Shown here in pieces: positions 28,070 to 33,315 of a stretch of DNA of 64,000 bases (positions are counted from its first letter, which is position 1; each line of letters opens with the position of its first letter). Under the pieces are notes generated by a model. It saw nothing but the letters and a program-made list of their open reading frames with translations. It was not told the origin of the DNA and did no database searches. A program made the translations under genes and the position numbers. The stretch covers positions 1,240,001 through 1,304,000 of the forward strand of contig NZ_OY782507.1 in assembly GCF_963677725.1 (NCBI RefSeq). The letters are read 5' to 3'. The DNA is from an uncultured Cohaesibacter sp. (GTDB taxonomy: Bacteria; Pseudomonadota; Alphaproteobacteria; Rhizobiales; Cohaesibacteraceae).

Positions 28070-28555
28070 ATGAGACTGGCCAAAGGCACTGATTATGCCT
28101 ACCGCATCCTGATGCTGGTGGCGAAGAATGATGACCGCAATCTGACAGTTGAAAGCGTCGCAAGCGCCTTGAATCTGTCACGTACCCATTGCATGAAAAT
28201 CATCGCAAAATTGTCGAATAGCGGCTTCCTGAAAACCACGCGCGGTCGCGGCGGTGGATTGGAGCTGGGCAATGAGCCTGCCAATATCCGCATGGGCGAT
28301 GTGGCCAAGGTGATGGAGGCGGATTTTGGCTTTGTCGAATGCCTGTGTCCGCGGTGCGATAACACCCCTCAGCCGGACTGTCCGATGTTTGGCGGCTGTG
28401 AAATGAGCCGCATCATGTCGAAGTCCGTCAAGCAGTTCGTTGCCAGCCTCAATGAACACAGCCTTGCGGATATTCTCGAACGATCAAAACACACGCCCAA
28501 TCTGGTGATGCGCGGATGTGAAACGGGTCGTGGTACGCCGCAAACATCGAGCTAG
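28070..28555 (+). CDS. Rrf2 family transcriptional regulator (NsrR-like) with extra cysteines
   Basis: A 161-residue winged-helix regulator. The start M-R-L-A-K-G-T-D-Y-A-Y-R-I-L and the G-R-G-G-G-L-E-L wing are typical of Rrf2. The cluster region has Cys91, Cys104 and Cys110; E-C at 90-91 and C-x5-C at 104-110 match the three Fe-S ligands of NsrR, the nitric oxide sensor. In addition Cys93 and Cys96 form a C-P-R-C insert between the first and second ligand. GAGGAATAG precedes the ATG. A truncated haemoglobin gene is 1.8 kb away, which fits an NO or Fe-S response role, but the targets are inferred. Confidence 0.85.
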   Translation: MRLAKGTDYAYRILMLVAKNDDRNLTVESVASALNLSRTHCMKIIAKLSNSGFLKTTRGRGGGLELGNEPANIRMGDVAKVMEADFGFVECLCPRCDNTPQPDCPMFGGCEMSRIMSKSVKQFVASLNEHSLADILERSKHTPNLVMRGCETGRGTPQTSS

Positions 28556-29202: not shown

Positions 29203-29225
29203 TTAAAATCATCCTACTATTTTAA
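29203..29225. promoter_or_regulatory. Inverted repeat before the Cas6-like gene
   Basis: A perfect 7-base palindrome TTAAAAT-N9-ATTTTAA, about 90 bases before the Cas6-like start and 36 after the CII-like stop. The size fits a dimeric repressor site, possibly for the Rrf2 or CII-like regulator upstream. This is a suggestion from symmetry and position only. Confidence 0.35.
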
Positions 29226-29313
29226 TCGACGGTGGGGCGTCCAACTGTCATCTCTAGAGCATTAAAAACAGCATGCCGTGCCCCGGTGTGCCCCAGAGCC
29301 ACGGAGATGTGTG

Positions 29314-30342
29314 ATGCCATTTGACGCTCCCCATACCTATCACAACCGTCAAAGTGACAGTTCAGTCACCCATTTGACACCGTCGCCCATTGCCCCCTCT
29401 GGCGTCGAGCTTGATCATTTACTGGCCCATCCGCAGAGCGCGTGCGATCTGGAAAGTCTTGCAGCCGCAATCAATATTCAGGATCTGAGTTTTGAATGCG
29501 AAGGTGATGGCCAGTTGGCCCAGCATCCCGCCCTCCCCGCTGCTGTTCGGCAGGTGATCGGCTCGGAGCTGATGACCACGGCGTCTCGGGAAGCATTGGC
29601 GGGATTGCCTTGTCCCTGGGGACCAGCCTGCGGTCTGCATGTCTTCTTTAATCGCCAGACCAGAGAGCAAAAAATGGGAATGGCACCGCCTTGGTTGTTG
29701 CGCACGGAATGCACCGGCGCGAACAGCATGCGCATCACGTTGCGCCTGTTCGGTCTGGGACAGCTCTGGGCTAGCAATTTGGGCGAAGCGGCTCATCGGG
29801 CACTGGAGCGCGGCATCAATCTGGCGGGTGTTGAAGCGGCCTGCCAAGGGGTTCTGATCCGCTCAGTGGAGCGTCTTTGGACCGATCTGGGAACCCCGCC
29901 CCCTTATGCCAATCACGCTTTGGTGCATTTTACCACGCCCTTTCGCGGGGATGAATCATCTGAGGAAGCATTGAATGACATGACGGTCGGGCGCCGCTTT
30001 CTCACGGACCTCATAACCCGTGCAGACGAAGTGGCCCGCTGGCATGGTTTGTCGCTGGAGCTGGATCGAGCCTCACTGGAAGGTGCCATAGCGGCATGCG
30101 AAATAAATGAGGAAGCACTTGAAGTGAGCGAGTGGAACCGGGCAATCAGCCAGAGAGGTATGGCCCGCATTCCCATGCGCGGTCATGCGGGCCTATTGCA
30201 ATTGCGATTTGGGGCCAGTCCGTCATTAGATCTGTTGCGGCTTTTGCAGATCGGTGCGCTGCTTCATTGCGGCCAGGACCTTGCCTTTGGACTTGGGTGC
30301 TATGATCTGTTTCTGATGGGTGGTCAGGCTTATTCCTGTTGA
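29314..30342 (+). CDS. Orphan Cas6-superfamily (RAMP) protein
   Basis: A 342-residue protein resembling the PF10040 CRISPR Cas6 family. In order: a C-P-x4-C pair (Cys100, Cys106) before a P-P-W-L-L-R strand, I-T-L-R-L-F-G-L-G (141-149), the V-H-F-T-T-P-F block (204-210) followed by R-R-F-L-T-D-L-I-T-R-A-D-E-V-A-R-W-H-G, then W-N-R-A-I-S-Q-R and the closing I-G-A-L-L-H-C-G-Q-D-L-A-F-G-L-G-C-Y (313-330), the Gly-rich RAMP loop. The usual loop Lys is Gln321. No CRISPR repeats or other cas genes are in view. ATG 29314 follows ACGGAGATGTG. Its end overlaps the truncated haemoglobin end by 13 bases. It could cut or bind RNA; substrate unknown. Confidence 0.7.
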   Translation: MPFDAPHTYHNRQSDSSVTHLTPSPIAPSGVELDHLLAHPQSACDLESLAAAINIQDLSFECEGDGQLAQHPALPAAVRQVIGSELMTTASREALAGLPCPWGPACGLHVFFNRQTREQKMGMAPPWLLRTECTGANSMRITLRLFGLGQLWASNLGEAAHRALERGINLAGVEAACQGVLIRSVERLWTDLGTPPPYANHALVHFTTPFRGDESSEEALNDMTVGRRFLTDLITRADEVARWHGLSLELDRASLEGAIAACEINEEALEVSEWNRAISQRGMARIPMRGHAGLLQLRFGASPSLDLLRLLQIGALLHCGQDLAFGLGCYDLFLMGGQAYSC

Positions 30343-30884
30343 TCCTTGCGGCGGACAAAGGCGATGAAATCCTTTGACATGACACCATGATCGAAGGCAT
30401 CGGGCGGTGCAATACGGCCTTGCAGAAAGACGGCCATTTGCAGCGTACGGGCGATGGTTTCTGCACGGTTGATATAGAGATTGGCCGCGTCTTCAGGACA
30501 AAGCGCGCGAGCGGTTTCCCGAAATAAAGTGAGCCAATCAGCAAAATCTTCCGGCTCCAACCCTTCAAGCTTGGCATGAGAGGGGATCGGCTTGCCGCCA
30601 TATTCACGGGTCTGCATCAGCATGGAGCGCCAAAAGGCCTTCATCCGATCCAGATGTTCAGGCCAATCCATGCTCATGCCGCCTGCAAACAGCATGGAGA
30701 GACGAGGATGTTGACGAATTTTCTCGTAGAAGGCGTCGACGAGGTCAGACACTTGCTGCTCGGTGATGGAGTCATGAAGCGGTTTGCCAGCGCGCTGCAT
30801 TCTCGTCATCGGACGACCGACAAGCGTCTCCGTTTCACCGTTGCGATTATTATTGCTATCGCTGTTGCGGTCATCGTGCTGCAT
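30330..30884 (-). CDS. Group III truncated haemoglobin
   Basis: A 184-residue globin of the TrHb3 group. After a ~40-residue Asn/Asp-rich N-terminal tail, the globin core has V-D-A-F-Y-E-K-I-R-Q-H-P, W-P-E-H-L-D-R-M-K-A-F-W-R-S-M-L and P-S-H-A-K-L, whose His is the proximal haem ligand. Such globins bind O2 or NO. The ATG at 30884 has GGGAG eight bases upstream; a start seven codons earlier is possible. It follows the YdjC-like gene by 34 bases on the same strand, and so the pair is likely an operon. The NsrR-like gene nearby supports a nitrosative-stress role (inference). Confidence 0.88.
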   Translation of the reverse strand: MQHDDRNSDSNNNRNGETETLVGRPMTRMQRAGKPLHDSITEQQVSDLVDAFYEKIRQHPRLSMLFAGGMSMDWPEHLDRMKAFWRSMLMQTREYGGKPIPSHAKLEGLEPEDFADWLTLFRETARALCPEDAANLYINRAETIARTLQMAVFLQGRIAPPDAFDHGVMSKDFIAFVRRKDQQE

Positions 30885-30918
30885 ATCACTCGCTCCCACC
30901 GACATCTAGCGCCCTGTT

Positions 30919-32670: not shown

Positions 32671-32955
32671 AAACTGTTGCTTTCCCGCCACGCCGCGATG
32701 CCGATGCTAAGTCATTTCAAGGAAGTTTCTTGATTTAGCCGCAAAATCGCCATATGGTCTGACCATCATCAAGAGAAGGGCTGGCGCCCTCGCCAACCTG
32801 CCCAACCGCGGCAAGGTGGCACCTGTTACGGGATGTGGCGGCATCTTTGCAAACCGCGAAGATGGCGCAACGACGCGGATATTCCCATATCGTCGCCAGT
32901 CTTCCAAACCGTGTCAGGTGCACATAGCACTGTGACATGCAAGGAAGGAAGTAAA

Positions 32956-33315
32956 ATGTTTGAAGCAGCTGATTTCGACCGAGATCTTCATGCAGATTGT
33001 TTTTCCATCCCGGCAGAGGGGACTGGAAAACGGATGCCATCTCCCCTGAAAACACCAACCGACGCCAAAGCCTATGAAAACGCGGTGCGCACCATTTTGA
33101 CAGCGGGTTTCAAGGCGCGTGTGATGTCGTGGCGGTCAGCTTATGATCTGGGCGCGCAGAATAATCTCTCGCTTGAAGCGTTGCGGGAACGTGTCAGCCA
33201 GTGTGCTCGTTTGATTGACGCTGGTCTGGGCTGTGCAGTTGATGAAACCCTGTTTGCAGCTCTGGTCTTTCACTATGCGCCACAAGCACGAGCGATTTCC
33301 CGCCAGATGCGCTGA
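32956..33315 (+). CDS. Hypothetical protein
   Basis: A 119-residue soluble protein I do not recognise. The first 40 residues are acidic and polar; the remainder is helical with A-Y-E-N-A-V-R-T-I-L-T-A-G-F and L-S-L-E-A-L-R-E-R-V-S-Q-C-A-R-L-I-D-A-G-L-G, which looks like a small helix bundle. AAGGAAGGAAG gives a good ribosome-binding site. It lies between the candidate small RNA and the GH3 gene (convergent). Confidence 0.6.
   Translation: MFEAADFDRDLHADCFSIPAEGTGKRMPSPLKTPTDAKAYENAVRTILTAGFKARVMSWRSAYDLGAQNNLSLEALRERVSQCARLIDAGLGCAVDETLFAALVFHYAPQARAISRQMR

Follow-up and report, generated by a model that had tools for sequence, protein, structure and literature searches.

A Cas6-type gene kept outside CRISPR loci in Cohaesibacter together with a CII-like regulator: a candidate for exaptation

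Introduction

Cas6 is the dedicated crRNA maturase of CRISPR systems. The closest described counterparts of the protein analysed here are the Cas6 proteins of type III systems with an RT-Cas1 fusion, represented by the CRISPR locus of the same genome, by MMB-1 (PDB code 6dd5) and by Thiomicrospira (PDB codes 7kft and 7kfu), with which it shares profile similarity over the full length, the Gly-rich loop, Arg79 and a set of polar residues. Unlike these proteins, the one described here, which we refer to as the orphan, is encoded outside a CRISPR locus, belongs to a clade of its own, has a glutamine instead of a glycine after Arg79, and has a CII-like regulator as partner.

Cas genes that lack a companion array have been surveyed as isolated or orphan cas loci (PMC5294841). 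That survey counts loci comprising three or more cas genes, and the term cas6 is absent from its text, whereas the present case concerns a single gene that selection maintains across a genus. In Streptomyces, a cas5-cas6-cas7-cas8 module without array or Cas3 has been taken as a case of exaptation (PMC8730458). The Streptomyces module and the orphan have in common a Cas6 outside an ordinary CRISPR system, but the former is a multi-gene effector beside a STAND NTPase gene, and the latter is a Cas6 alone with a transcription regulator. We found no account of a Cas6 family that consists of a single gene and is independent of CRISPR in the portions of the open-licence PubMed Central literature that were consulted.

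The orphan lies in a window of 64 kb, by which we mean the whole stretch of DNA that was analysed (C1:1240001-1304000), in a 4.6-Mb genome assembled as a single contig. The source organism is a member of the marine genus Cohaesibacter, which is not known to be pathogenic and for which 18 genomes were compared.

Results and Discussion

Family placement and fold

The features of the locus are collected in Table 1.

Table 1. Position of the orphan, its neighbours and upstream elements in the window, and of the CRISPR-type Cas6 gene of the same genome (contig coordinates, C1).
Feature	Position	Strand	Remarks
Rrf2-family regulator	28070..28555	+	PF02082, 94.5 bits
CII-like regulator gene, 154 aa	28703..29167	+	PF06892 (Phage_CP76), 56.8 bits; cut-off 26
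TTAAAATC-N9-TTTTAATCGAC motif, candidate operator/promoter element	29203..29230	+	precedes the orphan
Leader, motif to start codon	29231..29313	+	Shine-Dalgarno GGAGATG; folding potential weakly supported
Orphan Cas6-type gene	29314..30342	+	342 aa open frame; start ATG
Globin-like gene	30330..30905	-	Protoglobin, 23.6 bits, just under cut-off 25
CRISPR-type Cas6 of own genome	C1:534900-535856		Pfam score over cut-off; beside RT-Cas1

An earlier note on this DNA had described the product as an orphan RAMP protein of Cas6 type carrying the sequence blocks of Pfam family PF10040. The blocks are present (Cys100 and Cys106, the HFTTPF strand at residues 205–210, and the Gly-rich loop from Gly320 to Gly328), but the window copy does not reach the Pfam cut-off: the match spans the whole profile with 17 bits compared with a curated cut-off of 25 (E 0.01), and a six-frame search gives 19.3 bits, which is still below it. 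A search of the orphan protein against the NCBIfam profiles returned no match. For the 14 copies found in the genus, the PF10040 cut-off is passed by five, while all 13 intact copies match the profile at E ≤ 0.1, and four PADLOC Cas6 models match the same 13 copies at E ≤ 0.001, with an E-value of 3e-18 over nearly the full length of the window copy. Alignment with hhalign of an orphan profile and a profile of seven CRISPR-type Cas6 proteins gives a probability of 100 and an E-value of 3e-40 over 289 columns, and the best PDB sequence match is 6dd5 (E 0.009). On sequence grounds, we therefore regard the orphan firmly as a real gene of Cas6 type, despite a Pfam score below the cut-off, and this part of the earlier note can be upheld.

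A structure model of the orphan was built from four sequences and is of low confidence, with a mean pLDDT of 45. When the model was used as query in Foldseek, the 14 best PDB matches were all Cas6 (E 1.5e-7 to 1.2e-3), at TM-scores of 0.27–0.33 relative to the query length and rmsd values that are mostly 14–16 Å. Because of the low confidence of the model and the low TM-scores, a Cas6 fold is indicated rather than demonstrated; a prediction without a RAMP fold, which in the earlier note would have counted against the assignment, is at any rate not what was obtained.

Relatives of the orphan were sought in 61 related genomes, in 397, 385 and 398 genomes at the level of order, class and phylum, respectively, and in plasmids, phages and viral contigs. 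Outside the orphan clade, 12 relatives were retained and 10 weaker matches from the phylum search were set aside. Ten of the 12 are located in CRISPR loci: the copies in G000 (the genome of the window), G006, G009, G047, G222, G320, G812 and G951 adjoin RT-Cas1, the copy in G427 sits between repeats, and that of an Azospirillum plasmid adjoins cas1 and cas2. The remaining two are found at a contig end (G172) and as a fragment (G1001). The plasmid search matched two records, the cas locus of Azospirillum and a Tistrella plasmid, both of which are CRISPR-type, and the phage collection and viral contigs contain no relative of the orphan. In a tree of 25 proteins, composed of 13 of the 14 orphans (the interrupted G006 copy was omitted) and 12 Cas6 proteins (the G009, G812 and G951 copies and six of the 10 phylum matches were not included), all 13 orphans group together in a single clade (support 100/100). 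With four more distant Cas6 proteins from the phylum search as outgroup, this clade nests inside the other Cas6, a placement to be read in light of the long branches among the Cas6 rows, about which the tool gives a warning.

The CRISPR locus of the same genome and CRISPR genes in orphan carriers

The statement in the earlier note that no CRISPR accompanies the gene holds for the window but not for the genome. Neither an array nor another cas gene was seen near the orphan in the repeat scan of the window or in the 13 flanks from other genomes. The direct-repeat scan of the 64 kb revealed no CRISPR-like family among the five that are listed out of eight, searches of the whole genome with Cas1, Cas10 palm and RAMP family profiles pointed to no place inside the window, and cas queries taken from the CRISPR locus of the same genome did not uncover further cas sequences in any of the 13 flanks. 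That locus, of type III, is situated at C1:534900-551175, about 733 kb from the orphan, and comprises Cas6, an RT-Cas1 fusion, RAMP genes, Cas10, CorA-like and DHH-family proteins, and a pair of arrays that have 13 and 15 repeats at intervals of about 70 nt. The CorA-like and DHH-family proteins, assigned as accessory by PADLOC, adjoin one of the arrays (C1:548135-551175; L003:12136-15173). The Cas6 of this locus and the orphan are about 27–29% identical; the CRISPR system has a maturase of its own, and the orphan is a separate gene.

In the related genomes, the families searched were Cas1, Cas10 palm, RAMP and Cas6, with arrays considered at the loci that were read. As to INDEPENDENCE from CRISPR, Cas1 was detected in G000, G004, G006, G012 and G014, five of the 14 orphan carriers, and the genome search did not find it in the other nine. 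Matches to the RAMP family came from three of the 18 Cohaesibacter genomes (G000, G006 and G009), two of which carry the orphan; in 12 of the 14 carriers, the search for the type III RAMP family gave no match. Within the genus, G000 and G009 are the only genomes in which the Cas10 palm profile exceeds its cut-off, while matches in most genus genomes remain under it; as it also matches Escherichia coli in the control set, the profile is not specific. Two genomes are of particular relevance to the relation between the orphan and type III systems, namely G006, where the type III locus has its own Cas6 and the orphan copy is interrupted, and G009, where a type III locus is present and the orphan is absent.

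These distributions bear on the possibility that the orphan acts in trans as a crRNA maturase, serving either the type III arrays of the genome that encodes it or those brought in by plasmids or phages. The occurrence of Cas1 in five carriers and the retention of residues of CRISPR-type Cas6 (see below) would be in line with such a role, but Cas1 and the RAMP family went undetected in most of the carriers, the type III loci of the source genome and of G006 are already equipped with a Cas6, and the G009 locus occurs in a genome without the orphan. We consider a trans-acting maturase unlikely. For the same reasons, that is, the placement of the locus Cas6 beside RT-Cas1 and the nine carriers in which Cas1 was not found, a CRISPR locus elsewhere in the genome that clearly uses the orphan, which the earlier note had named as the finding that would speak against it, has not emerged.

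A constant two-gene unit and its neighbours

The orphan is present in 14 of the 18 Cohaesibacter genomes; no copy turned up in G005 (64% complete), G009, G011 and G017. A comparison of neighbouring genes across genomes, as proposed in the earlier note, identifies the CII-like regulator gene as the constant partner: it was found in exactly the 14 genomes with the orphan, and not in the four others. In addition to its Pfam assignment, this gene matches PHROG 101 (CII-like transcriptional activator) with an E-value of 9e-14. At all 13 other orphan loci, the gene order is SlyX, Rrf2, CII-like gene, orphan, YdjC-like gene, GH3, hisG.

An orthologue of the Rrf2 gene occupies the same place in G011 and G017, both of which lack the pair, and the Rrf2 gene is thus an older neighbour than the CII-orphan pair. 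In these two genomes (L148 and L149), Rrf2 is followed directly by a convergent globin gene, with neither the CII-like gene nor the orphan in between, which implies either a joint insertion of these two genes or their clean loss. The convergent, adjacent arrangement of the Rrf2 and globin-like genes in G011 and G017 may represent an old functional pair in its own right.

In the window, the globin-like gene shares 13 bases with the 3' end of the orphan, and the earlier note took it as a hint to the role of the orphan. Of the 13 other orphan loci, four have a similar globin, as do G011 and G017, and nothing similar to the window globin is present at the locus in the remaining nine. With so few of the loci sharing it, and with the Rrf2-globin arrangement existing without the orphan in two genomes, a partnership with the globin as a general feature was rejected, and the hint is not supported.

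The phage affiliation of the partner raises the possibility of an anti-phage or anti-plasmid device, where the CII-like regulator would sense or mimic prophage regulation and release the RNase on RNA from mobile elements. That the CII-orphan pair behaves as a unit would agree with this proposal, but its constant position between core genes and its confinement to a single clade do not, nor does the lack of relatives in the phage collection and viral contigs, the plasmid matches being CRISPR-type. A device of this kind appears somewhat less probable still than a trans-acting maturase.

Functional residues

Nine orphans and eight CRISPR-type Cas6 proteins were aligned jointly (17 rows), and Arg79 is the only charged residue that is invariant in all rows. 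The residue counts given here refer to nine of the 13 intact orphans and to seven of the eight CRISPR-type proteins, the partial G009 copy having been dropped and the G172 copy at a contig end included; columns were regarded as conserved when at least six of the seven complete CRISPR-type proteins agree. Besides Arg79, the residues Arg236, Trp243, His244, Trp274, Arg276 and His318 are kept in all nine orphans, and Arg242 in seven of them. In the Gly-rich loop, Gly320, Gly326 and Gly328 are present in all nine orphans and all seven CRISPR-type proteins. Gly80, adjacent to Arg79, is replaced by glutamine in all nine orphans, a substitution that could impair catalysis.

For the Cas6-RT-Cas1 protein of Thiomicrospira, repeat cleavage is reported to fall from 97% to 12% when Arg37, an active-site residue of the Cas6 part, is mutated (PMC8102632). 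Arg79 of the orphan aligns with the arginine of an LRGxFG motif in more distant Cas6 proteins, located about 34–37 residues from their N-termini, and because of this alignment, it is regarded as the probable equivalent of Arg37. The PDB sequence alignments to Cas6 chains, including Thiomicrospira, covered only the C-terminal part and not the Arg79 region, and the assignment of Arg79 as active-site arginine is consequently a probable one, made from motif position. Another substitution, of lysine by glutamine in the loop, had been read in the earlier note as a sign of altered activity; this was rejected, as the position varies in the CRISPR-type rows as well (Ala, Ser, Lys, Gln, Gln, Ser and Arg).

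The upstream motif and the leader

The motif upstream of the orphan recurs in 13 of the 14 carriers with three mismatches or fewer (in 12 of them with two or fewer), and in the fourteenth carrier a diverged form aligns. Elsewhere in the 18 genomes there are eight sites, all at three mismatches, compared with 13 for a reversed control; effectively, each genome has a single site. A TATAG-like box was read by eye in most leaders, approximately 22 nt after the motif, although it was not listed by a consensus promoter scan. The position of this box makes it plausible that the region is a promoter with an overlapping operator. The nearest candidate for a regulator binding the motif would be the CII-like protein encoded just upstream. 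CII of phage 186 is described as a transcriptional activator (PMC7708051). A separate inverted repeat, CAACCATA-N7-TATGGTTG, was observed by eye before the CII-like gene in several relatives (the Rrf2-CII gap in L025-L028), and is not evident in the window.

When the 14 leaders were folded, the Shine-Dalgarno sites were paired in most of them. Compared with shuffled sequences, the leaders have a mean z of -1.7 (two control gaps: -1.3 and -0.1); the leader of the window itself is less stable than its shuffles, with z about +1. RNAalifold on nine of the 14 leaders gave nine pairs, in two of which both partners change, while the covariation term was close to zero. A leader hairpin enclosing the Shine-Dalgarno site was set aside as weak on account of the shuffles, the control gaps and the stability of the window's own leader; given the TATAG-like box, part of the supposed stem could be promoter and not RNA.

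The replacement of Gly80 beside Arg79 and the paired Shine-Dalgarno sites could together suggest that catalysis has been lost and that the orphan is solely an RNA-binding regulator, acting for example on its own leader. However, the orphan retains every conserved polar residue of CRISPR-type Cas6, and the leader folds are weakly supported, that of the window copy being less stable than its shuffles. Loss of catalysis appears improbable, slightly more so than an anti-element device.

Selection and the most likely role

The reading frame is open in 13 of the 14 orphan copies; in G006 (L035), a TAG stop replaces the codon for Trp243, which is conserved in the other copies. Values of dN/dS for the orphan are 0.05–0.18 in eight overlapping pairs that share members and in which dS exceeds 1 in three cases. 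These values are above those of the CII-like gene in all eight pairs and above those of Rrf2 in seven, but far under 1. That the orphan is a decaying and functionless remnant of a lost CRISPR locus, for which the interrupted G006 copy might be quoted, can hardly be reconciled with purifying selection on a gene intact in all other carriers, with the conservation of its upstream motif and partner gene, and with the outcome of the queries from the genome's own CRISPR locus, which detected no further cas sequences in the 13 flanks.

Selection on the orphan even where CRISPR genes were undetected suggests that a CRISPR enzyme has been taken over for another RNA-handling job. The interpretation we favour, with a probability of roughly 0.6, is that of an exapted Cas6 that works outside CRISPR on cellular RNA. 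Such a protein would bind cellular RNA, and probably cut it.

A more detailed and tentative version of the exapted Cas6, to which we would give slightly less than even odds, is a domesticated, chromosomal, CRISPR-independent RNA processor or regulator that is part of a vertically inherited CII-Cas6 switch in most sampled Cohaesibacter, with a phage-type activator driving an RNase on a cellular hairpin. On the favoured interpretation, an ancestral Cohaesibacter would have gained, by acquisition or duplication, a Cas6 of the type III/RT-Cas1 kind, which would then have been fixed as a two-gene unit with the CII-like regulator between the Rrf2 regulator and the globin gene. The CII-like protein would switch the orphan on via the upstream motif, the two RRM domains of the orphan would bind a specific, structured cellular RNA, and a metal-free cut at the Arg79 site would process or switch off the bound transcript. 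The orphan's own mRNA leader would be one, weakly supported, candidate for this target. If the exaptation is confirmed, it would extend to a single RAMP nuclease what is already described for CRISPR modules of several genes, and the orphan would be a natural RNase acting on a target outside CRISPR.

Further features of the window

The search of the window against Rfam gave one match, outside the orphan locus, to the SAM-I/IV riboswitch (RF01725; positions 32761-32866, plus strand) at 55.5 bits with a gathering threshold of 41.1. Downstream of the riboswitch lies a small open reading frame at about 32953-33315 on the plus strand, which has no Pfam match and is found at the same place in all 13 other Cohaesibacter loci.
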